A stretch of 64,000 nt of DNA from Xestospongia bergquistia (taxonomy: Eukaryota > Porifera > Demospongiae > Haplosclerida > Petrosiidae), in NCBI GenBank assembly GCA_963965975.1, contig OZ014419.1, positions 6,404,150 to 6,468,149 of the forward strand, read 5' to 3'. Both the position numbers and the translations under genes were made by a program. This document shows, one piece after another, positions 3,463-55,894 of the stretch. The notes beneath the pieces were generated by a model that saw only the letters and a program-made list of their open reading frames with translations, was not told the origin of the DNA and did not search any database. Numbering within the stretch: the first letter of the stretch is position 1; each line of letters begins with the position of its first letter.

Positions 3463-3542
3463 GATCATGTGACAGTTACACTATAAAAGTGAGTACTTCA
3501 TCATCAGAATTTTAGTCTATCGAGTCTACAAAGTGCTCAATA
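3463..3542 (+). promoter_or_regulatory. TATA promoter of fibrinogen-like gene B
   Basis: TATAAAA at 3482-3488, 61 bp before the ATG at 3543, in a block almost identical to that of gene A. Confidence 0.6.
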
Positions 3543-10655: not shown

Positions 10656-22250
<11,595 letters not shown>

Positions 22251-34852: not shown

Positions 34853-36649
34853 TTACTTAGTGCTATCAATGAGTGTTTGATTCACTAACATTAGTGATCC
34901 AGGGTTGAGAACAGAAACATTGCCAATTTGGGCTTCACCAAATGCATCATGAGTGTGTCCATGAATATTGATAATAACCTTGGTTTGCTAAATTATAAAC
35001 AATATTTGGCATAACTAATGTGATGACGAAATGAATAAATGGATAGATGAAATGAATAAATGGATAGATGAAATAAATAAATGGATAGATGAAATGAATA
35101 AATGGATAGATGAAATAAATAAATGGATAGATGAAATGAATAAATGGATAGATGAAATAAATAAATGGATCGATGGATGGAAAAATAAATAGATTGATTA
35201 AAATGAGAATATAATGATCTCACTATTTCTGGTTTTATTAGCCATTCGTAAAGAGAGGGGGTACCAGATTCAATGAAATCATTCTGATCAGTAAGAGCTA
35301 CTATAGTAGTGGCTGAAAAGAGACAATAAAACATATATTCACTTCTTTCTATTGTATTCTACCTCTCTCTCTTACATGAGTTGGTAGGCCCATTGTGTGT
35401 CATCAAGATGAGTTGGTCAGTAGGAGATAAAGGTAACATTTCAGAGCTTATAATAGGATCTAATAACTTGGCAAGATCAGCAGATATCTCTTGTTCATCT
35501 CTATAAGGGAAACCTAGGGAGATAAATAGGACTTGGGAAGTCTCCCTTGTTTGTTGTTTGTCTATCAATCTGTTGTCCATCCCTCCATCCAATCCACATC
35601 TCTTTCAATTCATCCATCCATTTATAACATACTGTCCCACTCTTGTTCTCCTCCTTTTCGTCTATATGATGGTACACTACCACCTAAACCGGCTACAAAC
35701 AATCCAGGAGCAATGGGAACACATCGAAGGTGTACATTACAAGGAGGAGATGTTCTGACATCCAATTCAAATGACTTCGGAGCATCATGCTAAACAACAT
35801 GATAGAGATATTAAAAACATTCAATACTAAATATTTCATACATTTCCAGGTATATAGTATACATTATGATTTATCTTGCAAACTGCTTCAACTATTTTCT
35901 GTAAATCGTCATAATAAGAAGCTTTGAATTTTTCGGCAGTTTCAGAAGTATCAAAACCATACTCCATGGGCATATCAGCAATATCACCTGACACAAGTAT
36001 CAGGTCTAACCTGTTATGGTAAATGAATGTACATGATTTATGTGAAATTAATGTAAGGGGGAGACAAACTTTTCGTTGTGGTCAGTTAACCATTTTTGTA
36101 GTTTTTCAATCATCTCAAATGATGTATGAATGTCAGATATGTGTACTAAAAACAGATATAATTATGATATAAATTACTCTAATTAAATGGAATCCAATAA
36201 TTAGATTATCTATTACACTTCAGTGAAATTTGGTTGAGTTTTTGGGATGGAGTTTAGTCTAAAAAGTCAACTTCTAGTTTTTTCACTAATTGCTTTATTA
36301 ATTAACTTAATCTAAGGCTATTTGTTATTGCCTTCAGTAGTTTGGAGAGAGCCAACGTAGACACTCCTTCAATAGGATTTAGCTTGAGACTAGATATACA
36401 CACACTCAATTCTTTAATGAAATTATATAAAGTTAAATTTTGTTCCCAATCCTAAATTATAAGGCTGTTATATAAAATGAAGGTTATAGTAGTAATATTG
36501 AAGTAAATGTACATCTGGTATAAATTTCTTAAGTGTAATACGATAATACATGATCAGTGATAATTTAAAAGTTGCTTTGAATTTAACATATGACCCTAAT
36601 TTTATATGTTCAATAGTTAATACCACTTACAAATATTAAGTACACTCAT
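34853..36649 (-). CDS. Calcineurin-like metallophosphoesterase (7 exons, 253 aa)
   Basis: Dinuclear-metal hydrolase of the calcineurin-like fold. Spliced protein begins MSVLNILHISDIHTSFE. Metal-site motifs appear in order: DIH (residues about 10-12), SGDIAD (about 54-59), THNGP in place of the usual GNHD-type segment or second His motif (about 177-181), and IHGHTHDAFGE (GHTH) near 225, followed by NPGS. Exons from 5' to 3': 36649-36631, 36145-36070, 36010-35863, 35789-35633, 35513-35376, 35312-35224, 34987-34853; phases agree and the frame ends at TAA (34855-34853). The first exon is only 19 nt, identified by a good donor and by frame agreement. Substrate unknown: cyclic nucleotides, phosphoproteins or nucleotides are all possible. 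It is head to head with the PLP-enzyme gene. Confidence 0.85.
35027..35175. repeat. 21-bp tandem repeat (42-bp higher-order), phosphoesterase intron 6
   Basis: About seven copies of ATGAAATGAATAAATGGATAG. Units alternate between ATGAAT and ATAAAT forms, giving a 42-bp super-period. Confidence 0.9.
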
Positions 36650-36708
36650 TATGAATCCTTTCTCCAATGTACGAGCTCCACCCTTAGCCACACCCCTTAT
36701 CATTGTGT
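36650..36708. promoter_or_regulatory. Compact bidirectional promoter region
   Basis: Only 59 bp separate the divergent start codons at 36649 (minus) and 36709 (plus). It contains GAGCTCCACCCTTAGCCACA, a GC-box-like CCACCC/CCACACCCC arrangement and no TATA box. The block was duplicated downstream at about 39035-39085. If the plus-strand protein starts at the later ATG (36775), the intergenic space is 125 bp. Confidence 0.5.
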
Positions 36709-38433
36709 ATGGCTCATGTTAATTTGCAAAAATCTGTTATCTTCCCTTCCCATTTTAGATATCTAGTTAGAAGTATGTCGGTAGTAGATAGCAGGTATAA
36801 AAGAGACACTCTTTATCCCTACACTCCACCTGTTTGGGCTTCCAAACTATTACGTCCTCCATCTCATAGGTTACTTGTAAGTGAGCAATATTTCTATGCA
36901 CATGTTACTTATTCCTTTTCAGTTAGCTCAGTTACCTACTCCCATTCATCAGTGGTCTCCACAAGGTATACCAGAAGGATTTGAGCTGTATATTAAAAGA
37001 GATGACCAGACTGGAGCTGCACTCAGTGGCAACAAGGTTTTATAACACTCATACACACAACTCAACCAGACATTGAGAACTAGCTACACTGAAAATACAT
37101 TACAATAGTTACTTATTAGCACATTGAACCTACTCTTTACTTTAGATTCGTAAACTTGAATTCCTTATGGCTGATGCTCTTTATAACAAATGTGACACAG
37201 TTGTCACAATGGGTGGAATACAATCTAACCATGCTCGTGCCACAGCTGTAATAGGAAAACAACTAGGGCTCCAACCACACCTTCTCTTACGATCTAAAAA
37301 CACAGTAAAATAAGAAGACTAATTCGTCTCTCTTTATCACTTATTTTCTCTTTTTGACTTCACAGGATATATCTAGTGTTGGTTGTAATGGTAATCTTCT
37401 CTTAAATCGATTAATGGGTGCAGATATTATCATCTGTCCTTATCGTAATAAAGAGGACAAGATAATTGATGATAAGCGTGTTAAAGGCATGGATACATTG
37501 ATGGATGAGTACGCTGAAGTATTGAGGTAAGAAAGACTAGCACTAGAAAAGAAAGGATCAATTACTATTACTGTTGATCTCTGGTTTTTAGATCCAAAGG
37601 TCATAATCCTTATTTAATACCTCTTGGTGGCTCAAATGTATTGGGTTTATGGGGTTATATTGAAGCTTTTCGTGAATTTATGGAACAGGTAGAATATTCA
37701 TAACAAATTTATTTCTAATTGTATTGGATCTTAGGATATTTTGGACCAATTTGATGATATAGTTATGGCTATTGGAAGTGGAGGAACTACTGCTGGTATT
37801 GCTCTTGCAAACTATCTGACTGGCTCAAAACTCAAGTAATTAAATCATTTATAATGTATTAATACTACAATGTTTTCTATAGAGTACATGGTGTTTGTGT
37901 GTGTGATAATGCAGACTATTTTTATGAATTTATCGATGATCACTTGAAAGAGTTTGGAGTGTCTGAGCTGGTGAAGGCTAGAGAAATTGTTGATCTCATT
38001 GATGGTTATAAAGGAAAGGGCTATGCTCTATCAACCGAGGAAGAATTAAGTAAGAATGTTAGAACAATCTCTATTTCTCTTTCTCTCATAAAGAGCAACT
38101 TATCCAAATTTCTACTAAAACTGGAGTAATACTTGATAGAGTCTATACTTTTAAAGCAGTGAAAGGAATGTTGGAAGAACTGAAAAAAAATCCATCAAGA
38201 TTCAAAGGAAGGAAGATCTTGTTTCTACACACTGGTATGAGACCATTGACCACATTATCCCTATTTCCAACCAGATTAGTGATTATTAAGTTTAAGTGTC
38301 TTTCCATTATCTTACAGGTGGTATACACAGTATCTTTGATGGTGAATTGGAATCTATTGTAGATCTTGTTGAAGAGAGCAATAAAATTTACGATTATCTT
38401 AGTCCATCTAATCCAACAAAAACTGAAGAATAA
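36709..38433 (+). CDS. D-cysteine desulfhydrase / ACC-deaminase-like PLP enzyme, copy 1 (ancestral type, 407 aa)
   Basis: Fold-type II PLP enzyme. Members of this family release pyruvate, H2S and ammonia from D-cysteine or open ACC. Motifs: [27 protein letters not shown] (Schiff-base Lys in SGNK), [12 protein letters not shown] (SNH substrate/proton loop), PLGGSNVLGLWGY, and the phosphate-binding IGSGGTTAGIALA. Exons: 36709-36876, 36923-37036, 37146-37304, 37366-37526, 37592-37688, 37735-37835, 37883-38049, 38094-38234, 38318-38433; phases agree. The alternative ATG at 36775 gives 385 aa; the longer form adds a basic, hydrophobic N-terminus that might be a mitochondrial presequence. All expected motifs are intact. 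Nine introns' worth of splice sites show it is a eukaryotic gene and not bacterial contamination. D-cysteine activity is inferred. Confidence 0.88.
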
Positions 38434-38559
38434 GCAATTATATTATTAACGCAGTTATTTATTTGTGATCAATTATAATTGATATGTGTACTAAAAAGAG
38501 ATAAAATTAAAATATAAATTAGTTTAATTAAGTGGAATCTAATAATTTGACTATTACAG

Positions 38560-39720
38560 ATATACACATATCCATATTAAGTTCTTGGGATGGACTAATA
38601 AAATCATCTCCTAGTTTTTTTACTAATTGTTTTATTAATTGGCTTAATCTGAGGCATAAAATCATCTCCTAGTTTTTTCACTAATTGTTTTATTAATTGG
38701 CTTAATCTGAGGCTATTTGTCAAGGCAGATTTGTCTTCAGTAGTGTGAATACAGCTGAGGAAGACACTCCTTCAAGAGGATTTAGCTTGAGACTACAGAT
38801 ACACAAACACTCAATTCTTTGATGAAATTATATAAGTTAAATCTTCTCCATAACCTAAAACTATAAGGCTGTTGTATAAATATTGAAGTAAATTAATGGA
38901 CATCTATTAAAATCAAGGTGTAAATTTCTTAAGTCTTTCATAATAATACATGATCAGTGATGATTTAAAAGTTGTTTGAATTTAACACATGATCTCAGTT
39001 TTATTATGTTATAATAATACTCACAAATATTACCTTCTCAAACTACGAGCTCCACCCTTAGCCACACCTCTTATCACTGTGTATGGCTCATCTTAATTTG
39101 CAAAAATCTGTTATCCTTCCTTCCCATTTTAGATATTTAGTTAGAAGTATGTTAGTAGTAGATGGCAGGTATAAAAGAGACACTCTTTATCCCAACATTC
39201 CACCTGTTTTGGGTTCCAAACTATTACATCCTCCATCTCATAAGTTACTTGTAAATGAGCAAATGTTTCCATGCACATGTTACTTATAATATTCCTGTTC
39301 AGTTAGCTCAGTTACCTACTCCCATTCATCAATGGTCTCCATAAGGTCTACCAGAAGGATTTGAGCTATATATTAAAAGAGATGACCTGACTGGAACTGC
39401 ACTCAGTTGTAACAAGGTTTTATAACACTCATACACCTCATACACACAACTCAACCAGACATTGAGAACTAGCTACACTGAAAATACATTACAATAGTTA
39501 CTTATTAGCACATTGAACCTACTCTTTACTTTAGATTCGTAAACTTGAATTCCTTATGGCTGATGCTCTTTATAACAAATGTGACATTGTTATCACAATG
39601 GGTGGTATACAATCTAACCATGCTCATGCCACAGCTGTAATAGGAAAACAACTAGGACACCAACCACACTTTATTTTACAATCTAACAACACAGTAACAT
39701 AAAGACTGATAGATAATTAA
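38560..39720. repeat. Segmental duplication of the phosphoesterase/PLP-enzyme promoter region
   Basis: Matches about 36215-37320 in order: phosphoesterase intron 1, the bidirectional promoter, and exons 1-3 of PLP-enzyme copy 1, shifted by roughly 2.4 kb. A 59-bp segment containing CTAATTGTTTTATTAATTGG is doubled within it (about 38600-38715). The phosphoesterase start codon is not preserved in the duplicate. Confidence 0.8.
39083..39720 (+). pseudogene. Broken partial copy of PLP-enzyme gene 1 (exons 1-3)
   Basis: The exon 1 equivalent (AHLNLQKSVILPSHFRYLVRS) is open. In exon 2 a CAA codon has become TAA just after the QWSP block (about 39343), SGN has become SCN, and the sequence ends after the exon 3 equivalent. 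Exons 4-9 are absent. It lies on the segmental duplication and includes the copied promoter, so short transcripts are possible. Confidence 0.8.
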
Positions 39721-39801
39721 GTTTACTGGATATGTACACCTGCTTTGTTTCCTCAGAAAGTGAGCCTGTCTCATATAGGCTAGACCTAGTTAGGGTACTG
39801 A

Positions 39802-41660
39802 ATGAATAGTGTTGGTGATCATAAGTTGTATACACCTCCAGACTGGGCTACAGGACTAGGCAAAATACCAAAGTCAAGAATAAAGGTATAGTCTAACTGT
39901 GTTTGGTTTAACTTTGCAGATATATATGTTTAAACATAACTTACTATGTTGTACCTGTTACAATTTATGCGATTTTTATGATAATATTCACAAAATGATT
40001 GACATTTCATAAATATTCCTTTTTACAACCCTCTATATAAATTCATGTATACAAAAAAAAATATTTCTGTCTCTTAACAACAGAGAAATATCTTCCAAAC
40101 CTCTTTCTTATAGTTAGCTCAACTACCTACTCCCATCCATCCATGGTCTTTACCTGGACTACCAGAAGAGTTTGAGCTGTATATTAAAAGAGATGACCTC
40201 ACTGGAGCTGCACTCAGTGGTAATAAGGTTATTATAAAGTTAATAAACAGGAACAGCACAGTTATCTACACTGTATTCCAGTAGGTACGTAAACTAGAAT
40301 TCATATTTGCTGAAGCTATAGATCAAGGCCGTGATACTATCATTACTGGTGGACTGATACAATCTAATAATGCACGAGCTACTGCTGTAGTTGCCAAGGA
40401 ACTTGGACTGGACTGTCATTTATTGTTATATGGATCAGTAAGTATATTGTAATGTTCAATGCATGTATAAGTTGTACACCAAGGTAAATGTTCATATTAG
40501 ATCTATCAGACTGAACACCAGTACCAATGGCACAGTGTTACTCATAAAAATGATATCATTCCATAGACCACTACAGATAAAGAGAAAATGAAGCCTACTG
40601 GAAATCTTTTGTTGAGTAGAATGGCAGGGTCAACATTAGGTATTGGGTCAGACTTTTCAGCAGATCCCTTTACCCGGGTCTCAACAGATTGTTCGGATAT
40701 CACAGCAAAGTTAATGTAAGCTTAGCTTCATTATAAAGGTACATTAGACACTATTATCACAATTGCAGAACTCAAGGTAAAACATCCTACTCCATGGAAC
40801 TAGGCGGAGCTAATGCTGCTGGGTTTTGGGGCTACATTGAATTTTTCAAAGAAATAATAGAACAGGTTTAATTTTTCTCTTTTAAGTATCCTCTTCATAA
40901 ACATTTTTAGGGGGCACTAGAAAATTTTGATGATATTGTTACTACTATTGGCACAGGAGGAACAGCTTGTAGTCTAGCTATAGCCAATTATCTCACTGGA
41001 TCTAAATTGAGGTAGAATTATTTTAACCCTTTTCTTTAATTACCACTAATAACAATTTTATATAAGAAAACAATTATGTAGGGTTCATGGCATGCTGGTT
41101 TCTTTTAAGGTCCAAGTCAATGTGATCTGTGAACATATGGATTCTGAGATATCTGATGTAGGATTAAAAGGAGAAGATGGTCAACCATTAAAAAGTGTTA
41201 ACTTAATGAACATTGTTGATATGCAAGGAAAGTATCATGAAGAAGATTTAGGTGAAAATCATTCATATTTTTTTGTTAATGTTATCTTGTTTCTGTAGGT
41301 TTCCTAACTACAGTCTCTACTCAAACTGGTATTATATTAGATACCACATATACATTGAAAGCTGTTATTGGTATGTTACATGAGATGAAGACAAATCCAG
41401 ACAGTTTTAAAGGTCGTAGAATCCTCTTCATCCATACTGGTAAGTCATCAAAATTAAACCTGAGATAATTATTATTATCATAATTTAGCAGTAAATACAG
41501 GTTCTATATTTAGTGTTACAATATCATTTATAGTATATCACTGTGTTCACACTTAGGTGGTCTGTTTGGTCTTGCTACTGGCAAGTTAGATGAGATACTC
41601 ATATCAACTCCTGAGACTAATAAAATACATTCAATATTTGATTTTATTCCTGATCAATAG
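39802..41660 (+). CDS. D-cysteine desulfhydrase-like PLP enzyme, copy 2 (370 aa)
   Basis: Derived-type paralogue with nine exons: 39802-39885, 40114-40227, 40285-40437, 40567-40715, 40769-40865, 40911-41011, 41082-41251, 41299-41439, 41557-41660; phases agree. It starts [20 protein letters not shown]. The PLP lysine is kept (SGNKVRKLEF), but the substrate loop reads GGLIQSNNARA: the usual second Gly is Leu and the SNH histidine is Asn. The phosphate loop reads IGTGGTACSLA. The insert region [18 protein letters not shown] replaces the copy 1 sequence LLLNRLMGADIIICPYR. Intron 1 is 228 nt, longer than the 45 nt of copies 3-6. The 3' flank carries a foldback transposon 66 bp after the stop. Catalysis may differ from copy 1. 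Confidence 0.82.
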
Positions 41661-41729
41661 AATGTGTAATGGCTGCTGGAGAACTAAATCAATTGTCACT
41701 CATCATTCATTTATGATAAAAATTATTAA

Positions 41730-42972
41730 GGTAAAAATATCTGAAATTTTTTTTCAGCTTTTTTTGATGGAATCATGTAAAGATACTTGTTCTAATAATT
41801 GATCATGCTTTAAAAAATTTATTAAACCCTAGTACTTTGCAGAAATGTAGTTTGATTCCTTAATATCTGCAATGTTTGGAGACGTCAAATAATAATATTA
41901 AAGAACCTAGAGAGCTGAAACTTTTGAAAATTAAAGTTGAAGTCAATTACTACAATTTTACGGATGGATTTATTTCTATAATAATATTTGACATTTTTAC
42001 AAAGCTATAAACCTTCCCTACTTTAATCACTATTATTATTACATGTTATACAAATCGTACAAAGAAATGCATCCGTAAAAGTACTAAAAATTGATCATTT
42101 TCGTTCTTGAACTTGTCAGCAGGTTGTTACATTATCCATAAAATCAAAAATCACAACAAAAGTATCTAACAGTGCAAAAGTCGCCATCTTGATAATGAAT
42201 AATCGATTTTCATTAATTAAAGCCAATGAATACACTTAGTGTCAGGTTATTGATAAGTGACTTTCGCGGGGTTAAAATAGTTAAATAAAATGTATTAATT
42301 ATTATTACTATTATTATTATTGTTATTATTGTTCGTAGTCTTATGTGCCTTCATCTCAAAGCAGACCATGCTTTAATAACAGTAATAACAACAATAATAA
42401 AAATAGTAATAATATATTTAACTATTTTAACCCCGCGAAAGTCACTTATCAATAACCTGACACTAAGTGTATTCATTGGCTTTAATTAATAAAAATCGAT
42501 TATTCATTATCAAGATGGCGACTTTTGCACTGTTAGATACTGTTGTTGTGATTTTTGATTCTATGGATAATGTAACAACCTGCTGACAAGTTCAAGAACG
42601 AAAATGATCAATTTTTAGTACTTTTACGGATGCATTTCTTTGTACGATTTGTATAACATGTAATAATAATAGTGATTAAAGTAGGGAAGGTTTATAGGTT
42701 TGTAAAAATGTCAAATATTATTGTAGAAATAAATCCATCCGTATAATTGTAGTAATTGACTTCATCTTTAATTTTCAAAAGTTTCAGCTCTCTAGGTTCT
42801 TTAATATTATTATTTGACGTCTCCAAACATTGCAGATATTAAGGAATCAAACTACATTTCTGCAAAGTACTAGGGTTTAAAAAGTTTTTTAAAGCATGAT
42901 CAATTATTAGAACAAGTATCTTTACATGATTCCATCAAAAAAAGCTGAAAAAAATTTTCAGATATTTTTACC
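41730..42972. mobile_element. Foldback (MITE-like) DNA transposon with TTAA target duplications, 1243 bp
   Basis: Inverted arms of about 600 bp (41730 to about 42333 and about 42377 to 42972) are nearly identical and begin GGTAAAAATATCTGAAA on each strand, with a spacer of only about 40 bp. TTAA flanks the element at 41726-41729 and 42973-42976. The homologous 3' flank of copy 3 has a single TTAA (48196-48199) and no insert, which gives an exact empty site. No transposase frame is visible, so it is non-autonomous. TTAA duplications are typical of the piggyBac superfamily; the end sequence is not the classic CCC, so the assignment is tentative. Confidence 0.88.
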
Positions 42973-43353
42973 TTAAAACAGTATATGTAGTTATAAAACC
43001 AACTTGTGAGAACTACAAGTTAGGAAACAATAAAGAGAAAGACAAATTTAACCTGATAAGTCTGGTGTCCTTGGTGCTTTTAGGGGTGCCTTGGGCCAGG
43101 TGTTAGTGCAGTGGTACTTTGACTGTATTCATTCTTCAAAATTTATAGGAGCTACTAAAGCAGTTTTCTCTAAGCAGAAACTCTTAATAAACACACATCT
43201 TCTAGTTGGAGTATTATATCAAAGCATCTTCATTTCTACACTTCAGGGCCAAACCAAGTTGTCAAATGTCCCCCTCCGGACAGGGCTATCAGAGAAAGAA
43301 TAAAAGGACAGAAGTTATAAATGAATATTGTAACAAAGCTATACTTCTTGTAG

Positions 43354-43715
43354 TTAGCTCAACTACCTACTCCCATTCATCCATGGTGTTACTAGGACCA
43401 CCAGGAGAGTTTGAGCTGTATATTAAAAGAGATGACCAGACTGGAGCTGCACTCATTGGTAATAAGGTTAAAAAACAGGGACAGCACAGTTATCTACACT
43501 GCATTCCAGTAGGTACATAAACTAAAATTCATTTGCTGAAGCTATAGATCAAGGCTTAGATACTATCATTACTAGTGGACTGATACAATCTAATAATGCA
43601 CAAGCTACTGCTGTAGTTGGCATTATCTTATTGGTGGTATACACAGTATCTTTGTTAAAGAGAGCAATATAATATAATTTACAACTTAGTCCATTTAATC
43701 CAGCAAACTGAGGAG
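43354..43715 (+). pseudogene. Chimeric fragment of two PLP-enzyme paralogues
   Basis: From 43354 to 43620 it matches exons 2-3 of the derived copies ([22 protein letters not shown]), with SGNK changed to IGNK and base losses in the exon 3 part (AACTAAAATTCATTTGCTG). At about 43620 it switches to the last intron and exon of copy 1 (CATTATCTTATTGGTGGTA, TATCTTTG, then GAGAGCAATA). Exons 4-8 are missing. Reads as a product of unequal recombination or deletion between copies. Confidence 0.75.
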
Positions 43716-43972
43716 TAACTGAATTTTATTCTCATCTGTTAATCATTTTTTAGAAATGTTACTATGTATGTAAATAAACAAGAAAGAGAAAAAGGACACC
43801 TTATTGGTGAATTTTTTTCCTCAAAAATTGGGGTGTGGTTAGTTTGCATTCTTCTGAAGAGTGAAGACTAAATAATTTTTCTCCCTTTGTCCAGTATTAT
43901 CTACTGTACTGTAAGTAATCTTACTATCATGATTTAATATATGACTCTCAGTTACTCTAGTCTAGATCTGAT

Positions 43973-46111
43973 ATGAGTTCTACCTGCTGTCTAAAATGTA
44001 ATCAACCTTATTGTGACCCTCGTTTGCTCTCTTGTTGTCACTCCTTCTGTACTCAATGTATCCAGTCTCTCATCACTGAAGACACTGGGACTAACTTCCT
44101 CACTTGTCCCTCTTGTCAACAGACCACATCTGTACCCAGTGGAGGAGCCACCTCTCTTCCTTGTAACCTTCACCTTGTCAACAAGCAAAGTGACATTCTT
44201 AATAAGATCACATCTAACTCTCCTCCTCCATGTGACTCATGTGGTAAGGATCTTGCCATAGCATACTGTACTGAGTGTACAGATCTCCTCTGTAAACAAT
44301 GTTGGGATGCTCATCAAATGGTACGTTTAACTCGTACACATTCTTCCTTTACTCTGGAAGAAGCTCGTAGCATGTCTCAAGATAGCCTATCCAAAATGAT
44401 CCCATCCTCCTCTTGTACCTGCCAAGATCATACTGATCAACAACTTGACTTTTACTGCCAACAATGTGCCATTCCTATTTGTGTTAAATGTATTATCATC
44501 AACCACAAGGACCATCCTGTTACTGAGGTCAGTAAACAAGCAGACGAGAATAAACAGGCAGTATTTCAGTGCCTAGAAGGTTTCCGGGTAGCTCAACAAC
44601 AGCTTAACAAGGTTCTGATATCAGGAGAAGAGGTAAAGGGGATGATCAAAGCTTATAAGGATGAGGTCAATACAATCATACGTCAAACATTTGCCAGTCT
44701 TCAGCAACTTCTACATCAACGCGAGGAGGCTCTGTTAGCTCAGAATAGCGAGGTAGCTAATGCTAAGGAGGTTCGTTTGTCTCTTCAACTGGAGGGGATC
44801 CAACATCTCTTGGAGACCATCACCCACTGTCAGAGGTTTGCAACCACTGCCACTGGAGAGTACAATGATGTTGAGTTATTATCAGTTGCTCACACTCTGG
44901 AGACCAGAGCAAATCAATTACAACAACAGTTCTCTGAGACATCTCTTGAGCTCTCTGAGTCACCAACTATATCAGTAAATATTAATACAGATGAACTAGT
45001 TACAAATATAGCTAACTTGGGTGTTGTGCTTGAAGGAGATATTTCTCCTACTCATACAACAGCAAAAGTACCTTCTTGTGTAAAAGTGGGCAAAGAGTTA
45101 AATGTTAAAGTCATATCCAGAGACAATAAAGGGAAGGAGTTATTTAATGGAGGTGCAACAGTGAGTGGTAGATTTATTCCAGTTGGAACAATAATTCAAG
45201 CTAAGACCACAGATTTTGGAGATGGTACATATCTTATCGCTTTGACTCCTCAGCAATTTGGTCGACATAAGCTTTCCCTCACTGTTCATGGTCAGTCTAT
45301 TCAAGGCAGTCCCTTTAGCTCTTTTGTTAGCCGAGATTACACTACTGTCAAAGAACCCGTACAGACTATTACTGGGATAAATAAACCACAATTCATAGCC
45401 ATTTCTGATAGTGGTGACATGTTTGTCACTAGTGGGGGTAGCCATTGTATATATGTATATGACAGTAGTGGAAGAAAGAAGAGTATCATTGGTTCAAATT
45501 TTAATCTTCCCAGTGGAATAGCTATCTGTGGTGATATAATATATGTAGCAGAGAATAGAGGAAACAAGATTCACAAATTAACATTAGGAGGGGATCTTTT
45601 GAGTACTTTTGGCTATAGAGGTTCAGGCAATGGTCACCTCTCATATCCCTGGGCTATATGTATTGGTCCTGATAGTAAAATATATGTTGCTGAATATGGT
45701 AATAATCGTGTTCAGGTATTTCATTGTGATGAGACTTTCTCTCATATCATCAATGGTAATGTAACAGGTGATGGCAGGTTTCAAGGTCCTGAAGGTCTTT
45801 CCTTTGATCCATCTGGTCACCTTCATGTGACTGGTTATAAGTCTAACACAGTTACTGTCTTCACTCCTGAGGGTCAATATGTTCATCATTATGGCCAGTC
45901 TTATCTTAGTGGACCTTGTGGTATAGCTATTGATTCAGCTGGTGAATCACTTGTTGCAAATGGTAGTAAAAATTCCCTCACTATATTTGATCCAAATGGC
46001 ACTTGTATTGAATTATTAGGAGAACTTGACACTCCAATAGGAGTAGCTGTGACTCATGATGGATCAGTGTGGGTAGCTGATCGGGGCAACCATAGACTAG
46101 TAAAGTACTAA
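43973..46111 (+). CDS. TRIM-NHL protein: RING, two B-boxes, coiled coil, filamin repeat, NHL propeller (712 aa)
   Basis: Probable E3 ubiquitin ligase of the TRIM2/TRIM3/TRIM71-like architecture, encoded by one exon. Order: RING finger (residues 6-48: CLKC, CCHSFCTQC, CPSC), B-box 1 (about 86-125, CDSCGKDLAIAYCTEC), B-box 2 (about 148-188, DFYCQQCAIPICVKC, then NHKDHP), a coiled coil (about 200-320), a filamin-type Ig repeat (about 335-445, ending GQSIQGSPFSSFV) and about six NHL repeats (455-712, such as PWAICIGPDSKIYVAEYGNN and VAVTHDGSVWVADRGNHR). NHL propellers in this family bind RNA or protein targets. It lies in the same orientation inside the PLP-enzyme cluster, between a fragment and copy 3. 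Sponges carry many such genes, so one-to-one orthology with a vertebrate TRIM is not claimed. Confidence 0.92.
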   Translation: MSSTCCLKCNQPYCDPRLLSCCHSFCTQCIQSLITEDTGTNFLTCPSCQQTTSVPSGGATSLPCNLHLVNKQSDILNKITSNSPPPCDSCGKDLAIAYCTECTDLLCKQCWDAHQMVRLTRTHSSFTLEEARSMSQDSLSKMIPSSSCTCQDHTDQQLDFYCQQCAIPICVKCIIINHKDHPVTEVSKQADENKQAVFQCLEGFRVAQQQLNKVLISGEEVKGMIKAYKDEVNTIIRQTFASLQQLLHQREEALLAQNSEVANAKEVRLSLQLEGIQHLLETITHCQRFATTATGEYNDVELLSVAHTLETRANQLQQQFSETSLELSESPTISVNINTDELVTNIANLGVVLEGDISPTHTTAKVPSCVKVGKELNVKVISRDNKGKELFNGGATVSGRFIPVGTIIQAKTTDFGDGTYLIALTPQQFGRHKLSLTVHGQSIQGSPFSSFVSRDYTTVKEPVQTITGINKPQFIAISDSGDMFVTSGGSHCIYVYDSSGRKKSIIGSNFNLPSGIAICGDIIYVAENRGNKIHKLTLGGDLLSTFGYRGSGNGHLSYPWAICIGPDSKIYVAEYGNNRVQVFHCDETFSHIINGNVTGDGRFQGPEGLSFDPSGHLHVTGYKSNTVTVFTPEGQYVHHYGQSYLSGPCGIAIDSAGESLVANGSKNSLTIFDPNGTCIELLGELDTPIGVAVTHDGSVWVADRGNHRLVKY

Positions 46112-46470
46112 GTTCTTTTTAAAATCAAGCAGGATTTGATGCTTTTATTAAATCTGTAATATACCATGATTTAGCCTATTTTTATGGTTGTTTCTTATAT
46201 TTATTACAGATGATTTATTTTCTGCTTATCGATATTGTTAATTCTAATGTTTCTGAAAATTATAGCAGAATGGAAACAATAATTTATCTTTTTTGGAAAC
46301 ACACACATCAGAATTTACTGTAGACACTGTTGACAAGACTTATGACTGTTTTAATATATTTAATCCAGAATTATAAACAGTTGTTTTTAAAGTGTTGTAA
46401 TGCTTTACTTAATGCATGCATTTGGTTGATATATCATCTTATCATATTAGAGGGTGGGTCAGGCCTAAGA
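46112..46470. other. Spacer between the TRIM-NHL gene and PLP-enzyme copy 3
   Basis: AT-rich; serves as TRIM 3' flank and 5' flank of copy 3. Copy 3 lacks the AATTGGG/CCCAATT palindrome seen upstream of copies 4-6. Confidence 0.5.
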
Positions 46471-48130
46471 ATGGCAGAATTGTACACACCTCCAGACTGG
46501 GCTAAAGGACTAGCTAAAATACCAAAGTCAAGAATAAAGGTATAATAGTTAGAAAGAATCTTCTTCTAAAGCTACTTCTTATAGTTAGCTCAACTACCTA
46601 CTCCTATCCATCCATGGTCTTTACCTGGACTACCAGAAGAGTTTGAGCTGTATATTAAAAGAGATGACTTGACTGGAGCTGCACTCAGTGGTAATAAGGT
46701 TATTATAAAGTTAATAAACAGGAACAGCACAGTTATCTACACTGTATTCCTGTAGGTACGTAAACTAGAATTCATATTTGCTGAAGCTATAGATCAAGGC
46801 TGTGATACTATCATTACTGGTGGACTGATACAATCTAATCATGCACGAGCTACTGCTGTAGTTGCCAAGGAACTTGGACTGGACTGTCATTTATTGTTAT
46901 ATAGATCAGTAAGTATATTGTAATGTTCAATGCATGTATAAGTTGTACACCAAGGTAAATGTTCATATTAGATTTATCAGACTGAACACCAGTACCACTG
47001 ACACAGTGTTACTCATAAAAATGATATCATTCTATAGACCACTACAGATAAAGAGAAAGTGAAGCCTACTGGAAATCTTTTGTTGAGTAGAATGGCAGGG
47101 TCAACAATAGGTGTTGGGTTAAACTTGTCAACAGATCCCTTTACCCAGTTCTCAACAGAATTTTTAAATATCTCGGCAAAGTTAAAGTAAGCATAAGTTT
47201 CTTTATAAAGATACCTTAGACATTGTTATCATGATTGCAGAGCTCACGGTAAAATGCCCTACTCCATGGAAATAGGTGGAGCTAATGCTGCTGGATGTTG
47301 GGGCTACATTGAATTTTTCAAAGAAATAATAGAACAGGTTTAATTTATATTCACAAACACAGATTAAATAAATGTTTATGATTTAGGGAGTATTAGAGAA
47401 TTTTGATGACATTGTTACTACTATAGCCACAGGAGGATCTGCTTGTGGTCTAGCTATAGCCAATTATCTCACTGGATCTAAATTGAGGTAGAATTATTTT
47501 AATTCTGTTCTTTAATTACCACTAATAACAATTTTATATAAGAAAACAATTATGTAGGGTTCATGGCATTTCTCTTAAGGTCCCAGTCAATGTGATCTGT
47601 GAACATATGGATTCTGAGATATCTGATGTAGGATTAAAAGGAGAAGATGGTCAACCATTGAAAAGTGTTAACTTAATGAACATTGTTGATATGCAAGGAA
47701 AGTATCATGAAGAAGATTTAGGTGAAAATCATTCATATTTTTTTGTTAATGTTTTCTTGTTTCTGTAGGTTTCCTAACTGCAGTCTCTACTCAAACTGGT
47801 ATTATATTAGATACCACGTTTACATTAAATGCTGTTATTGGTATGTTACATGAGATGAAGACAAATCCAGACAGTTTTAAAGGTCGTAGAATTCTCTTCA
47901 TCCATACTGGTAAGTCATCAAAATTAAACCTGAGATAATTATTATTATCATAATTTAGCAGTAAATACAGGTTCTATATTTAGTGTTACAATATCATTTA
48001 TGATCAATCATTGTGTTCACACTTAGGTGGTCTGTTTGGTCTTGCTACTGGCAAGTTAGATGAGATACTCATATCAACTCCTGAGACTAATAAAATACAT
48101 TCAATATTTGATTTTATTTCTGATCAATAG
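46471..48130 (+). CDS. D-cysteine desulfhydrase-like PLP enzyme, copy 3 (363 aa)
   Basis: Nine-exon derived-type paralogue. It starts [20 protein letters not shown] (exon 1: 46471-46539; exon 2: 46585-46698). The PLP lysine (SGNK) and the SNH histidine are kept, but the loop reads [11 protein letters not shown]. The region after exon 3 reads [15 protein letters not shown], unlike copies 2, 4 and 5, and the phosphate loop is [11 protein letters not shown], where Gly is replaced by Ala. Exon 7 has [12 protein letters not shown], two residues shorter than the MLVSLK form of copies 4-5. The stop is TAG at 48128-48130. All splice borders look usable, so it is probably functional, perhaps with changed specificity. 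Confidence 0.8.
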
Positions 48131-48477
48131 AATGTGTAATGGCTGCTGGAGAACTAAATCAATTGTCACTCATCATTCATTTATGATAAAAATTATTAAA
48201 ACAGTATATGTAGTAATAAAACTAACTTGTGAGAACTACAAGTTAGGAAACAATAAAGAGAAAGACAAATTTAACCTGATAAGTCTGGTGTCCTTGGTGC
48301 TTTTAGGGGTGCCTTGGGCCAGATGTTAGTGCAGTGGTACTTTAACTGTATTCATTCTTCAAAATTTATAGGAGCTACTAAAGCAGTTTTCTCTAAGCAG
48401 AAACTCTTAATAAACACACATCTTCTGGTTGGAGTATTATACAAAAGCATCAATATTTCTAATTAAAATGCAGGCAT

Positions 48478-48519
48478 AATTGGGCGAAACGCCACACACA
48501 TTCATAGGCTAACCCAATT
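48478..48519. promoter_or_regulatory. AATTGGG...CCCAATT palindromic element before copy 4
   Basis: AATTGGG at 48478-48484 and CCCAATT at 48513-48519 bracket GGCGAAACGCC, itself a small palindrome. It lies about 27-68 bp upstream of the ATG. The identical block precedes copies 5 and 6. CCCAATT/AATTGGG contains the CCAAT core in both directions. A promoter role is inferred from position and conservation. Confidence 0.45.
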
Positions 48520-48545
48520 GTAAGTGTCTGTTAATTGTCATTAAA

Positions 48546-50223
48546 ATGGCATATTGTAGTGCTGAGTTGTACACACCTCCAGACTGGGCTACGGGACTAG
48601 CCAAAATACCAAAGTCAAGAATAAAGGTATAATAGTTAGAAAAGAGTCTTCTTCTAAAGCTACTTCTTATAGTTAGCTCAACTACCTACTCCTATCCATC
48701 CATGGTCTTTACCAGGACTACCAGAAGAGTTTGAGCTGTATATTAAAAGAGATGACCTGACTGGAGCTGCACTCAGTGGTAATAAGGTTACTATAAAGTT
48801 AATAAATAGAAACAGCACAGTTATCTACACTGTATTCCAGTAGGTACGTAAACTAGAATTCATATTTGCTGAAGCTATAGATCAAGGTTGTGATACTATC
48901 ATTACTGGTGGTGGTATACAATCTAATAATGCACGAGCTACTGCTGTAGTTGCCAAAGAACTTGGACTGGACTGTCATTTATTGTTATATAGATCAGTAA
49001 GTATATATATTGTAATGTTCAATGCATTTATAAGTTGTACACCAAGGTAAATGTTCATATTAGATTTATCAGACTGAACACCAGTACCAATGGCACAGTG
49101 TTACTCATAAAAATGATATCATTCCATAGATCACTACAGCTAAAGAGAAAATGAAGCGTACTGGAAATCTTTTGTTGAGTAGAATGGCAGGGTCAACAAT
49201 AGGTATTGGGTCAGACTTTTCAGCAGATCCCTTTACCAGGGTCTCAACAGATTGTTCGGATATCACAGCAAAGTTAATGTAAGCTTAGCTTCATTATAAA
49301 GGTACATTAGACACTATTATCACAATTGCAGAACTCAAGGTAAAACATCCTACTCCATGGAACTAGGCGGAGCTAATGCTGCTGGGTTTTGGGGCTACAT
49401 TGAATTTTTCAAAGAAATAATAGAACAGGTTTAATTTTTCTCTTTTAAGTATCCTTCTCATAAACATTTTTAGGGGGCATTAGAAAATTTTGATGATATT
49501 GTTACTACTATTGGCACAGGAGGAACAGCTTGTAGTCTAGCTATAGCCAATTATCTCACTGGATCTAAATTGAGGTAGAATTATTTTAATCCTGTTCTTT
49601 AATTACCACTAATAACAATTTTATATAAGAAAACAATTATGTAGGGTTCATGGCATGCTGGTTTCTCTTAAGGTCCCAGTCAATGTGATCTGTGAACATA
49701 TGGATTCTGAGATAGCTGATGTAGGATTAAAAGGAGAAGATGGTCAACCATTGAAAAGTGTTAACTTAATGAACATTGTTGATATGCAAGGAAAGTATCA
49801 TGAAGAAGATTTAGGTGAAAATCATTCATATTTTATTGTTAATGTTATCTTGTTTCTATAGGTTTCCTAACCACAGTCTCTACTCAAACTGGTATTATAT
49901 TAGATACCACATACACAATGAAAGCTATTATTGGTATGTTACATGAGATGAAGACAAATCCAGACAGTTTTAAAGGTCGTAGAATCCTCTTCATCCATAC
50001 TGGTAAGTCATCAAAATTAAACCTGAGATAATTATTATTATCATAATTTAGCAGTAAATACAGGTTCTATATTTAGTGTTACAATATCATTTATGATCAA
50101 TCATTGTGTTCACACTTAGGTGGTCTGTTTGGTCTTGCTACTGGCAAGTTAGATGAGATACTCATATCAACTCCTGAGACTAATAAAATACATTCAATAT
50201 TTGATTTTATTTCTGATCAATAG
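48546..50223 (+). CDS. D-cysteine desulfhydrase-like PLP enzyme, copy 4 (369 aa)
   Basis: Nine-exon derived-type paralogue, starting [20 protein letters not shown] (exon 1: 48546-48626). PLP lysine in SGNKVRKLEF. The loop is GGGIQSNNARA, with glycine restored compared with copy 2 but Asn in place of the SNH His. Downstream blocks: [66 protein letters not shown] and [15 protein letters not shown]. Exon 8 has an intact acceptor (CTATAG, 49856-49861). Exon lengths match copy 2 apart from exon 1. It is nearly identical to copy 5 over the whole unit. Confidence 0.8.
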
Positions 50224-50561
50224 AATGTGTAATGGCTTCTGGAGAACTAAATCTCATCATTAATTTATGATAAAAATTATTAAAACAGTATATGTAGTAA
50301 TAAAACCAACTTGTGAGAAGTACAAGTTAGGAAACAATAAAGAGAAAGACAAATTTTACCTGATAAGTCTGGTGTCCTTGGTGCTTTTAGGGGTGCCTTG
50401 GGCCAGGTGTTAGTGCAGTGGTACTTTGACTGTATTCATTCTTCAAAATTTATAGGAGCTACTAAAGCAGTTTTCTCTAAGTAGAAACTCTTAATAAACA
50501 CACATCTTCTGGTTGGAGTATTATACAAAAGCATCAATATTTCTAATTAAAATGCAGGCAT

Positions 50562-50603
50562 AATTGGGCGAAACGCCACACACATTCATAGGCTAACCCA
50601 ATT
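50562..50603. promoter_or_regulatory. AATTGGG...CCCAATT palindromic element before copy 5
   Basis: Same block and spacing to the ATG (50630) as before copy 4. Confidence 0.45.
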
Positions 50604-50629
50604 GTAAGTGTCTGTTAATTGTCATTAAA

Positions 50630-52303
50630 ATGGCATATGGTAGTGCTGAGCTGTACACACCTCCAGACTGGGCTACGGGACTAGCCAAAATACCAAAGTC
50701 AAGAATAAAGGTGTAATAGTTAGAAAAGAGTCTTCTTCTAAAGCTACTTCTTATAGTTAGCTCAACTACCTACTCCTATCCATCCATGGTCTTTACCAGG
50801 ACTACCAGAAGAGTTTGAGCGCTATATTAAAAGAGATGACCTGACTGGAGCTGCACTCAGTGGTAATAAGGTTACTATAAAGTTAATAAATAGAAACAGC
50901 ACAGTTATCTTCACTGTATTCCTGTAGGTACGTAAACTAGAATTCATATTTACTGAAGCTATAGATCAAGGCTGTGATACTATCATTACTGGTGGTGGTA
51001 TACAATCTAATCATGCACGAGCTACTGCTTTAGTTGCCAAGGAACTTGGACTAGACTGTCATTTACGGTTATACGGATTAGTAAGTATATTATAATGTTC
51101 AATGCATGTATAAGTTGTACACCAAGGTAAACATTCATATTAGATTTATCAGACTGAACACCAGTACCAATGGCACAGTGTTACTCATAAAAATGATATC
51201 ATTCCATAGATCACTATAGCTAAAGAGAAAATGAAGCCTACTGGAAATCTTTTGTTGAGTAGAATGGCAGGGTCAACATTAGGTATTGGGTCAGACTTTT
51301 CAGCAGATCCCTTTACCAGGGTCTCAACAGATTGTTCGGATATCACAGCAAAGTTAATGTAAGCTTAGCTTCATTATAAAGGTACATTAGACACTATTAT
51401 CACAATTGCAGAACTCAAGGTAAAACATCCTACTCCATGGAACTAGGCGGAGCTAATGCTGCTGGGTTTTGGGGCTACATTGAATTTTTCAAAGAAATAA
51501 TAGAACAGGTTTAAATTTTCTCTTTTAAGTATCCTTCTCATAAACATTTTTAGGGGGCATTAGAAAATTTTGATGATATTGTTACTACTATTGGCACAGG
51601 AGGAACAGCTTGTAGTCTAGCTATAGCCAATTATCTCACTGGATCTAAATTGAGGTAGAATTATTTTAATCCTGTTCTTTAATTACCACTAATAACAATT
51701 TTATATAAGAAAACAATTATGTAGGGTTCATGGCATGCTGGTTTCTCTTAAGGTCCCAGTCAATGTGATCTGTGAACATATGGATTCTGAGATAGCTGAT
51801 GTAGGATTAAAAGGAGAAGATGGTCAACCATTGAAAAGTGTTAACTTAATGAACATTGTTGATATGCAAGGAAAGTATCATGAAGAAGATTTAGGTGAAA
51901 ATCATTCATATTTTATTGTTAATGTTATCTTGTTTCTATAAGTTTCCTAACCACAGTCTCTACTCAAACTGGTATTATATTAGATACCACATACACAATG
52001 AAAGCTATTATTGGTATGTTACATGAGATGAAGACAAATCCAGACAGTTTTAAAGGTTGTAGAATCCTCTTCATCCATACTGGTAAGTCATCAAAATTAA
52101 ACCTGAGATAATTATTATTATCATAATTTAGTAGTAAATACAGGTTCTGTATTTAGTGTTACAATATCATTTATGATCAATCATTGTGTTCACACTTAGG
52201 TGGTCTGTTTGGTCTTGCTACTGGCAAGTTAGATGAGATACTCATATCAACTCCTGAGACTAATAAAATACATTCAATATTTGATTTTATTTCTGATCAA
52301 TAG
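50630..52303 (+). pseudogene. PLP-enzyme copy 5, probably newly broken by a splice-site change
   Basis: Very close to copy 4 from promoter to stop, but the exon 8 acceptor CTATAG/GTTTCC of copy 4 reads CTATAA/GTTTCC here (about 51935-51946). The next AG is one base further on; using it shifts the frame and meets a stop within three codons. It also has changes at conserved sites: ELYIKRDD has become ERYIKRDD, CHLLLYGS has become CHLRLYGL, and KGRRILF has become KGCRILF. SNH is intact and the loop is GGGIQSNH. A truncated protein lacking about the last 80 residues, or use of another acceptor, remains possible. Decay must be recent given the identity to copy 4. Confidence 0.65.
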
Positions 52304-52647
52304 AATGTGTAAAAGCTGCTGGAGAACTAAATCAATTGTCACTCATCATTCATTCATGATAAAAATTAAAACAGTATATGTAGTAATAAAACTAACTTGT
52401 GAGAACTACAAGTTAGGAAACAATAAAGAGAAAGACAAATTTAACCTGATGAGTCTGGTGTCCTTGGTGCTATTAGGGGTGCCTCGGGCCAGATGTTAGT
52501 GCAGTGGTACTTTGACTGTATTCATTCTTCAAAATTTATAGGAGCTACTAAAGCAGTTTTCTCTAAGTAGAAACTCTTAATAAACACACATCTTCTGGTT
52601 GGAGTATTATACAAAAGCATCAATATTTCTAATTAAAATGCAGGCAT

Positions 52648-52689
52648 AATTGGGCGAAACGCCACACACATTCATAGGCTAACCCAATT
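52648..52689. promoter_or_regulatory. AATTGGG...CCCAATT palindromic element before copy 6
   Basis: Same block and spacing to the ATG (52716) as before copies 4 and 5. Confidence 0.45.
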
Positions 52690-52715
52690 GTAAGTGTCTG
52701 TTAATTGTCATTAAA

Positions 52716-54364
52716 ATGGCATATGGTAGTGCTGAGCTGTACACACCTCCAGACTGGGCTACGGGACTAGCCAAAATACCAAAGTCAAGAATAAAGGTAT
52801 AATAGTTAGAAAAGAGTCTTCTTCTAAAGCTACTTCTTATAGTTAGCTCAACTACCTACTCCTATCCATCCATGGTCTTTACCAGGACTACCAGAAGAGT
52901 TTGAGCTGTATATTAAAAGAGATGACCTGACTGGAGCTGCACTCAGTGGTAATAAGGTTACTATAAAGTTAATAAATAGAAACAGCACAGTTATCTACAC
53001 TATATTCCTGTAGGTACGTAAACTAGAATTCATATTTACTGAAGCTATAGATCAAGGCTGTGATACTATCATTACTGGTGGTGGTATACAATCTAATCAT
53101 GCACGAGCTACTGCTGTAGTTGCCAAGGAACTTGGACTGGACTGTCATTTATTATTATATGGATCAGTAAGTGATGTAACTTATAAATAAAATTAAATTT
53201 AAAACTAAATATTTTATAGACCACTACAGACAAAGATAAAATGAAGCCTACTGGTAATCTTTTACTAAATAGAATGGCTGGTTCGACTGTAGGTATTATG
53301 CCAACTATACCGCCAGATCAAAGATTTAACATCTATGATCGAATGCTAGAAGATTTCTCTACAAAGTTAAAGTTAGACATCCCTTCATGTGTAAGAAGAC
53401 ATTGTACATGGATTTTATACAGAGCTCAAGGCAAGACTTCTTACTCCATGGAACTAGGCGGAGCTAATGCTGCTGGATGTTGGGGCTACATTGAATTTTT
53501 CAATGAAATAATAGAACAGGTTTAATTTTTCTCTTTTAAGTATCCTCTTCATAAATATTTCGTTAGGGGGTGTTAGAAAATTTTGATGATATTGTTACTA
53601 CTATTGGGACAGGAGGAACAGCTTGTGGTCTAGCTATAGCCAATTATCTCACTGGATCTAAATTGAGGTAGAATTATTTATTATCAATCCTATATTTGCC
53701 AAAGTCAATCAAGTACATTCATAGTTGGCACATTTCACTAAAAATAATTTGTTACTACAATCTATAGTTTATTGTTGTGTTCACCATTTTATATTAATTT
53801 TTAATTTAATGCCCTTATTAGGGTACATGGTATTTGTTTAAAAATCCCAGTTAATGTGATCTGTGAACATATGGATTATGAGATAGCTGAAATAGGATTA
53901 GTAGGAGAAGATGGTCAACCAATTAAGTGTGTAAACCTAATGGAATTTATTGATATTCTTGGCAAGAATGACATGGAAGATTTAGGTATCAAACTATTCT
54001 AATGTAATTATAAATACAAATTTCCTTTCTGTAGGTTTCCTAACTACAGTCTCTACTCAAACTGGTATTATATTAGATACCACATTTACTTTGAAAGCTG
54101 TTAATGGTATGTTACATGAGATGAAGACAAATCCAAACAGGTTTAAAGGTCGTAGAGTCCTCTTCATCCATACTGGTAAGTACTAAATAGTATCCCTTTC
54201 GTTTACTGAATTTAATTTAAAATATGTGTGTGTATGTGTATTTTTGTAATGTGGTATCTCTTTCAGGTGGCCTATTTGAGATGGCTGCTGGCAAGTTAAA
54301 TGAGACAATTCAATTGACTCCTGAGACTAATAAAATACATTCTATATTTGATTTTATAAATTAA
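52716..54364 (+). CDS. D-cysteine desulfhydrase-like PLP enzyme, copy 6 (366 aa)
   Basis: Nine-exon paralogue whose exons 1-3 are nearly identical to copies 4-5 (start [14 protein letters not shown]; loop [11 protein letters not shown] with His kept), while everything from intron 3 on is clearly older: NRMAGSTVGIMPTIPPDQRF, IGTGGTACGLA, VHGICLKIPVNV, FIDILGKNDMEDLG and a shorter C-terminus (FDFIN). Later exons: 53220-53371, 53423-53519, 53567-53667, 53822-53985, 54035-54175, 54267-54364; phases agree. The 51-nt intron at 53372-53422 is stop-free and in frame, so its retention would only add 17 residues. The gene ends 256 bp before the INTS6 start codon. Confidence 0.8.
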
Positions 54365-54495: not shown

Positions 54496-54620
54496 GGAAG
54501 GATTGACCAATGCGCTCATTAGCTACGTTATTAGCGTGGAGAGAGTGCTAGGGATCAGTATGTCGTTTTTATAGGTGATTTTCAAGTAGTAATTGAAAAG
54601 ACTCATAAACAACACTGAAG

Positions 54621-55863
54621 ATGGGTATTATATTATTTCTAGTGGATACAAGTGCGTCAATGAACCAAAAAACTTTTCTTGGCACGTCGTATCTAGACGT
54701 TGCTAAGGGAGCCATTGACACATTTATGAAGGTTGGTTGCGCATTTGGTTTTTGAAGCTCATAGCGACTTTTTGTTGCTGCGTAGTATTAATCAGAACAT
54801 GATACATAAGTAATGCAAGAATTGACTGAATTGCATATTCTTTTCCTTCAGTATCGCGCTCGAGATCCTGCTAGCGCTGGAGACCATTACATGCTGGTCT
54901 CCTTCGATGACCCGCCTACTTCAATTAAGGTGGGTATACGGAAAAACACGAGCTGTAATATAGTAAATATACTGTGTTTAAAATTTATGTTTAATATTAA
55001 AAAAAAGGTTGATTATAACGACCTATTACAATTCTACATAAAGTTATAATGTAATGTTGTATACAACATGTGTATCTATTTGTTTACACACATCAATATA
55101 TGATATGTAATGTTTAGGTTGGTTGGGAAAACCACGGTATATTTATGTCTGAGTTAAAAAATCTTCAAGCAATTGGACTGTCTACATTTAATCAAAGCCT
55201 CAAAGAATCACTTTATCTTCTCAACATTAATCGTCTTCACACAGGCATTGATCACTATGGACAGGTATAACATGCATGCACTAACACACCAAATGATATA
55301 AATATTGGTATAGATAAGTGGTACTCAATGATGTATTTGGTAGAATAACCACTATAGAATGCCATAGAGACAGACTTTGAAGTACAACTGGCAAATTAAA
55401 TTAAATTAAATTCATTGCTGCTGGTCAAAATTACATTTATTGTACAATAGAATTATAACAAAATATAATATGAATATAATTAATATACTATATAAACCTG
55501 ACTCAATTATAACATTTCGTTAATATATTGGAAACAACCTGTACATACTGATGTCTAAATAGTCTGTTTATTTCTCCTCATGGTCAGACACCATTAAATC
55601 TGTACTCTTATATATTATCTAGGGGCGTAACCCTTTTTTTCTGGAACCAGCTGTAATTATAGCTCTAACTGATGGAGGAAAATTCAATAACAGCACTGGA
55701 AATATTGAAGATGAGGTATGATCACTGAAACAGTAATAATTCTTTAATTTTTGAACTTAATTAGAACTCCACCCATAAACCACATCAAACACTTTCAGTT
55801 TCAATTAATGCAGACCAATAGTTTTAACAATACATAATACTACATGTAAATTTGATACATGTG

Positions 55864-55894
<31 letters not shown>

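Follow-up and report, generated by a model that had tools for sequence, protein, structure and literature searches.

The D-cysteine desulfhydrases found described come from bacteria and plants (PMC3344862, PMC7432710), and mammals are reported to produce hydrogen sulfide (H2S) from D-cysteine via another pathway (title of a reference cited in PMC12414876). Among the open-licence papers listed, judged from listings and the openings of abstracts, no paper was recognised on this enzyme family in a sponge, a coral, a metazoan or another invertebrate. For the Salmonella D-cysteine desulfhydrase (StDCyD), PMC3344862 names Lys51 as the lysine that carries pyridoxal phosphate (PLP), Tyr287 as the proton-abstracting base, with Y287F inactive, and Tyr261 as hydrogen-bonded to Tyr287, with Y261F cutting D-cysteine activity by 75-85%; H80Q costs about 50% of activity. 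Ser78 and Gln77 are the specificity residues, and the enzyme is inactive on 1-aminocyclopropane-1-carboxylate (ACC); in ACC deaminases, Thr288 and Thr315 are replaced by Glu and Leu, and Gln stands at the position of His80 (PMC3344862). The locus compared with these systems here lies in a stretch of 64,000 nucleotides, termed the window, from the sponge Xestospongia bergquistia (contig C9, 6404150-6468149, in a 146.46 Mb genome of 21 contigs). Between 36.7 and 54.4 kb of the window lie six genes of the D-cysteine desulfhydrase/ACC-deaminase-related PLP family (c1 to c6), each with nine exons, together with two pseudogene fragments (f1 and f2).

The reading favoured here, with a probability of about 0.6, is that the array combines one ancestral desulfhydrase, c1, with a locally amplified, gene-converted and functionally altered clade of paralogues, c2-c6.

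Gene structure of the array

The gene models were built from repeats of ~2.09 kb together with open frames. GT-AG borders are found at every intron of the six copies except intron 7 of c5, which ends in AA instead of AG; splicing at the AG one base further would result in a frameshift and an early stop. Because its exon-8 splice acceptor is lost, c5 is probably broken, while the reading frames of c1, c2, c3, c4 and c6 are intact. Intron phases are the same across all six copies, and intron positions match at seven of eight sites; at intron 3, which falls in a gapped stretch, c1 is offset by three alignment columns from the other five. From these gene structures, the introns are older than the divergence between c1 and c2-c6.

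The fragments are likewise products of the array. A 76-84% match by blastn links f1 to 36136-37323, and it carries an in-frame TAA within exon 2, while f2 consists of derived exons 2-3 fused to a c1-like exon 9 (blastn). Repeats of up to 300 nt, mostly 90-100% identical and far above chance, are shared among c2-c5, and c3-c6 are spaced at a period of 2084-2088 bp. When the whole genome was queried with c1 at E up to 1, 35 exon matches were obtained, none of them outside the array. Nothing in the window sequence indicates an assembly artefact, since the window is free of N and the copies differ from one another in sequence. The six nine-exon copies and two fragments described in an earlier sequence-only reading of this DNA are thus borne out by the gene models, the common intron phases and blastn, and the array is slightly richer and more decayed than that reading described.

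Family assignment

PALP is the sole Pfam match for c1, c4 and c6. Profile scans covered c1, c2, c3, c4 and c6, c5 being left out for its broken splice acceptor. Against TIGR01275, the D-cysteine desulfhydrase family of NCBIfam, c1 scores 318.6 bits, above the cut-off of 289.4, and the derived copies fall below it (c2 246.1, c3 248.7, c4 254.9 and c6 254.1 bits). The ACC deaminase model TIGR01274, with a cut-off of 392, is failed by all five (c1 130.3, c2 104.2, c3 110.9, c4 119 and c6 115.8 bits). The D-cysteate sulfo-lyase CuyA (NF052482) fails as well, at 227 for c1 versus a cut-off of 450, and specific desulfhydrase models are likewise far under their cut-offs. The solved relatives are 1j0a, the D-cysteine desulfhydrases 7ysk and 4d8t/4d97, and ACC deaminases. 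The sequence-only reading had joined two enzyme names, and they fared differently: the D-cysteine desulfhydrase half stands, as c1 passes TIGR01275, while ACC deaminase was rejected, with c1 at 130 versus 392 bits and with Thr/Thr in all copies where ACC deaminases have Glu/Leu. Profile and residues together make D-cysteine desulfhydrase the best reading of c1. Similarity by chance and wrongly read frames were also rejected, as splice sites, common introns and family scores concur.

The product of c1 has 385 amino acids if translated from the ATG at 36775 and 407 if translation begins at the ATG at 36709. The extension of the longer form is basic, and no acidic residue occurs among its first 26 residues, so that the extension may, weakly, be read as a mitochondrial presequence. 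Against this predicted location it has to be said that it rests on composition, and that the amphipathic score of c3 is similar (0.67, versus 0.69 for c1).

Active-site changes in the amplified copies

An alignment-based scan of genome contigs gave at least 592 relatives, of which the best 80 were kept; after three short frames were dropped, 77 bacterial rows entered the residue alignment, which is read in StDCyD numbering. The usual residue is found in c1 at Lys51, Asn50, Gln77, Ser78, Asn79, His80, Tyr261, Tyr287, Thr288 and Thr315. The equivalents of Lys51, Asn50, Gln77, Ser78, Asn79, Thr288 and Thr315 are kept in all six copies, and position 80 is His or Asn in every copy, never the Gln of ACC deaminases. 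At least 95% of the bacterial rows agree in 43 columns, of which c1 keeps 42, c2-c4 keep 36 each, and c5 and c6 keep 37 each.

All of c2-c6 share a set of replacements: Ala stands for Ser161 and Thr for Ser195, each of which is Ser in 76 of the 77 bacterial rows, and a shortened loop leaves no Tyr in the Tyr261 column in two alignments, a column that is Tyr in 77/77 bacterial rows. In c6, no Tyr is found near that column. Further changes are confined to some copies: Phe occupies position 287 in c3 and c6 (bacterial Tyr in 76/77), with Tyr kept in c2, c4 and c5, and Asn occupies position 80 in c2 and c4 (bacterial His in 75/77). Because the Lys, the Asn and the GG(T/S) loop are intact, c2-c6 probably still bind PLP, but little or no D-cysteine desulfhydrase activity is expected of them. 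Amplification does not appear to have just added enzyme, since it is the copies with changed active sites that were multiplied.

Divergence, probable gene conversion and selection

Trees that include bacterial rows group all six copies in a single clade (support 100/99), with c2-c6 as a clade nested inside it (100/100) and a stem of 0.60-0.84 for c2-c6 versus 0.19-0.40 for c1. The first tree had 42 rows, including 34 of the 80 bacterial loci and two solved chains; the second had 39 rows, including 14 of the 80 loci and 19 of 22 later loci, with three duplicates dropped; and the third had 34 rows, including 10 of the 80 loci, 17 of the 22 later loci and one unverified plant row. The earlier view that copy 1 holds all classic motifs and that the others are a derived clade therefore agrees with both residues and trees.

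Between c1 and the derived copies, synonymous divergence (dS) is 1.5-1.8, near saturation, and the ratio of nonsynonymous to synonymous divergence (dN/dS) is 0.26-0.30. The dS is 0.23-0.30 between c6 and the other derived copies and 0.03-0.12 among c2-c5. The sequence of c6 is a mosaic: up to about position 53170 it matches c4/c5 at 94-100% identity, and the remainder at 63-89% (blastn). For pairs of derived copies, dN/dS is 0.36-0.61, with a 95% interval below 1 in 7/10 pairs by codon bootstrap, which points to some constraint on the derived copies. Such weak purifying selection suggests that c2-c6 have taken on a different role, be it a new substrate, the binding of PLP or of a ligand, or partnering, and are not simply decaying.

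Proposed history

The starting point would have been a single ancestral D-cysteine desulfhydrase gene, rich in introns and extended at the N-terminus (YxPPxWA), which would then have undergone tandem duplication. One product, c1, would have retained the ancestral role, in which PLP is held on Lys (SGNK) and the C-alpha proton of D-cysteine is removed by the Tyr287 equivalent, with release of H2S, pyruvate and ammonia as the predicted outcome. The sister copy would have evolved fast, with loss of the Tyr261 column and of two near-invariant serines, and would then have been re-amplified in ~2.09 kb units, with unequal crossing-over and gene conversion giving rise to c2-c6.

Several points weigh against this history and the selection and residue evidence behind it. 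The dN/dS interval is not below 1 for c2-c3, c2-c4 and c4-c5, and dN/dS is a pairwise measure whose estimate is blurred by gene conversion. Loss of Tyr261 is alignment-dependent: c2-c5 carry a Tyr close by, placed three residues further along (GKYH) by one alignment and one residue off by the other. Phe at position 287 is also found in 1/77 bacterial rows, and c1 itself has Arg instead of the conserved Pro at its own position 316, its single deviation among the 43 columns. An error in assembled copy number is possible.

If correctly read, c1, an animal gene that has kept all its catalytic residues, would provide an enzymatic way for an animal to turn D-cysteine into H2S, one that can be put directly to the test. 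The five altered copies would form a natural active-site series, among them the very replacement that abolishes activity in the bacterial enzyme, in which the change of a PLP enzyme into something different after tandem duplication can be followed.

Origin of the ancestral gene

The best-surviving rival concerns the source of the array and can be entertained only tentatively: the animal lineage would have acquired the gene laterally from bacteria, be it Verrucomicrobiota or a similar group, and the gene would then have gained introns and been amplified. Identity to c1 is at most 44% among the best 80 of the at least 592 contig relatives. Genome searches by phylum used c1 with differing E thresholds, so the counts are not rates: matches occur in 51/82 genomes of the phylum of the Caldithrix row at E 1e-3 (at most 261.5 bits, with identity reaching 50%); at E 1e-55, in 3/395 genomes of the Bacteroidales-row phylum, 27/282 of the Myxococcota-row phylum and 1/288 of the Verrucomicrobia-row phylum; and at E 1e-60, in 3/329 genomes of the Gammaproteobacteria-row phylum and 0/321 of the Chloroflexota-row phylum. 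The single Verrucomicrobia-phylum match stands out at 310 bits. In the class of this match, 3/288 genomes gave matches at E 1e-50, one match per genome, with 310-344 bits, versus at most 261.5 bits for the best matches listed elsewhere. The assignment of these three genes (L126, L127 and L128) to Verrucomicrobiota derives from the named locus that centred the search, and they are neighboured by long, bacterial-looking open frames.

In favour of transfer, c1 shares an N-terminal extension with the three Verrucomicrobiota genes and forms a clade with them (100/99) in a tree of 33 rows from which c2-c6 and one long Thermotogaceae row were left out. With the full copy set (39 rows), however, support for the nine-row grouping that contains the three genes falls to 37/42. 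The phylogeny with bacterial homologues that accompanied the sequence-only reading as a proposed check thus gives a single clade of c1-c6, but the placement of c1 with the Verrucomicrobiota genes varies with the rows. Identity, moreover, is only about 50%, and the introns predate the c1/derived split. As only 3/288 genomes of that class carry the gene at E 1e-50, transfer in the reverse direction is possible. An unverified plant D-CDes sequence, which serves as a lead and no more, joins the clade of c1 (100/99) and shares 50% identity with c1, a placement that would point to a gene of long standing in eukaryotes.

Other sources were also searched. Four loci were found in viral contigs, of which the two full-length ones are 35-36% identical; 343 plasmid records were all below 60% identity, the eight best listed being at most 41.5%; and a single-protein scan of genome contigs gave no relative. 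Recent transfer from a sampled prokaryote was rejected, as no full-length match among those listed exceeds 51% identity. Because the closest prokaryotic relatives found are only about 50% identical, the data argue against recent transfer from the prokaryotes sampled, while ancient transfer and an old eukaryotic gene are not told apart. As a separate observation, D-cysteine-desulfhydrase-like genes with a YxPPxWA-like N-terminus occur sporadically in Verrucomicrobiota and were possibly exchanged with eukaryotes.

Relics, dosage or a new kind of protein

A somewhat less probable account treats most derived copies as dead remnants of a tandem array with fast turnover, their frames open only because the copies are young or were recently converted. 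The c5 acceptor mutation, the two dead fragments and the catalytic-site substitutions fit this account, as do the youngest pairs, with dN/dS about 0.5 and wide intervals. However, five of six reading frames are intact, and c6 versus the rest shows dN/dS of 0.36-0.47 at the dS given above, with an interval below 1, which implies coding constraint for much of that time.

It is unlikely that every intact copy is an active D-cysteine or D-amino-acid desulfhydrase and that the array serves to raise enzyme dosage for the breakdown of D-amino acids or for H2S production. The seven residues common to all six copies, the purifying selection and a copy number that is real in this assembly agree with dosage, and His80 and Tyr261 are dispensable in part in the Salmonella enzyme, according to PMC3344862. 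Conversely, the Y287F change of c3 and c6 inactivates that enzyme (same source), several near-invariant positions are altered in all of c2-c6, and the splice site of c5 is broken. The earlier proposal of an expanded working D-amino-acid or H2S enzyme is weakened in the same way, since four of five derived copies alter His80 or Tyr287, all five alter other near-invariant positions, and the fifth has the broken splice site.

Equally improbable is that c2-c6 represent a new kind of PLP protein, in which the Tyr261/Tyr287 pair is wholly or partly lost and PLP binding is kept. The PLP lysine would then serve as the base on other (e.g. L-) amino acids, or the proteins would bind PLP or a ligand without catalysis, with gene conversion diversifying the array. 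The altered paralogue clade beside one ancestral desulfhydrase is preferred to each of these accounts.

Elements and genes in and around the array

Coordinates of the array members and of the elements lying between them are collected in Table 1.

Table 1. Features of the array region, with positions in the window
Feature	Position	Strand	Basis
c1, nine exons	36775-38433, or 36709-38433 if upstream ATG	+	TIGR01275 pass, catalytic residues intact
f1, decayed duplicate of the 5' part of c1 (exons 1-3) and its upstream region	38481..39710	+	blastn, exon-2 stop
c2, derived, nine exons, intact, Asn at His80	39802..41660	+	exon model, alignment
Palindromic (fold-back) insertion within an array unit	41726..42976	.	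arms 603 nt, 96% complementary
f2, chimeric pseudogene	43296..43718	+	blastn
TRIM-type gene, single exon, unrelated to the array around it	43961..46111	+	Pfam
c3, derived, intact, Phe at Tyr287, G194A and T198S (phosphate loop)	46471..48130	+	
c4, derived, intact, Asn at His80	48546..50223	+	
c5, derived, exon-8 acceptor AG to AA (51940-51941), predicted frameshift	50630..52303	+	
c6, derived, intact, mosaic, Phe at Tyr287	52716..54364	+	

The palindrome lies in the unit after c2; its arms (41726-42328 and 42374-42976) are separated by a 45-nt spacer and accompanied by a 4-nt candidate target-site duplication. Between f2 and c3, the TRIM-NHL gene encodes a B-box, a filamin domain and NHL repeats (Pfam). 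Directly downstream of the array lies a gene for Integrator complex subunit 6 (54609-57411), of which 56929-57408 matches PDB 7cun chain F at 1.4e-19. Wnt genes mark animals, and a Wnt search of the genome gave nine exon matches at three loci, with none in 14 prokaryotic control genomes, so that the animal origin assumed from the sequence is supported. A contaminant contig was rejected: the contig is 7.5 Mb long and belongs to a genome that has Wnt genes, and on it the array surrounds the TRIM-NHL gene and is followed by the Integrator gene.

Elsewhere in the window, near-identical tandem frames of 388 and 385 amino acids lie at 1252-2418 and 3516-4673, with a partial third at 5913-6374; they appear secreted and cysteine-rich by eye, and the first one, when scanned, gave a single Pfam match below cut-off. 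Short tandem repeats at 11358-11858 are open in several frames on both strands. Exons at 12781-22250 presumably resemble Mediator subunit 12; the segments 15633-16493 and 17650-18057 gave no Pfam match, and 15633-16493 also no PDB match. On the same contig, a tandem cluster of silicatein/cathepsin-like exons was found at C9:1502856-1523418 with a silicatein query; the two copies read carry CYAF, with Cys and not Ser at the catalytic position, so that this cluster by itself makes a sponge source plausible, not certain.

Comparison with known systems

The closest solved enzymes differ from the array mainly at the active site and the termini. The chains 4d8t/4d97 are presumably Salmonella typhimurium StDCyD, and their residues fit the numbering of PMC3344862. 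StDCyD belongs to the same family as c1 (E 1.9e-43), and its published active-site residues are common to both; c1 differs from it by N- and C-terminal extensions, and c3 and c6 carry the Y287F that inactivates StDCyD. The top-scoring solved relative of c1 and c4 is 1j0a, deposited as an ACC deaminase, which has His at Gln77 of c1; it is taken here to be the PhAHP of PMC3344862, its organism presumably Pyrococcus. The ACC deaminases 1f2d, 1j0c and 1rqx share the superfamily and the PLP lysine with the array, but have Glu/Leu where the array has Thr/Thr.

Among plant-type enzymes (D-CDes, EC 4.4.1.15; isoforms cited in PMC7432710), the family motifs are also present in c1, whereas c2-c6 differ by their altered active sites. 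Over 350 aligned positions that include the N-terminal extension, c1 has its 50% identity to the unverified plant D-CDes sequence, again as a lead, and c2-c6 have 40-41%. The closest prokaryotic relatives found are the three Verrucomicrobiota genes, which are 47-49% identical by tblastn (50-51% in the genome-search listing) and carry a YxPPxWA-like N-terminus as in c1; unlike the nine-exon array, they are intronless and occur as a single match per genome at E 1e-50.

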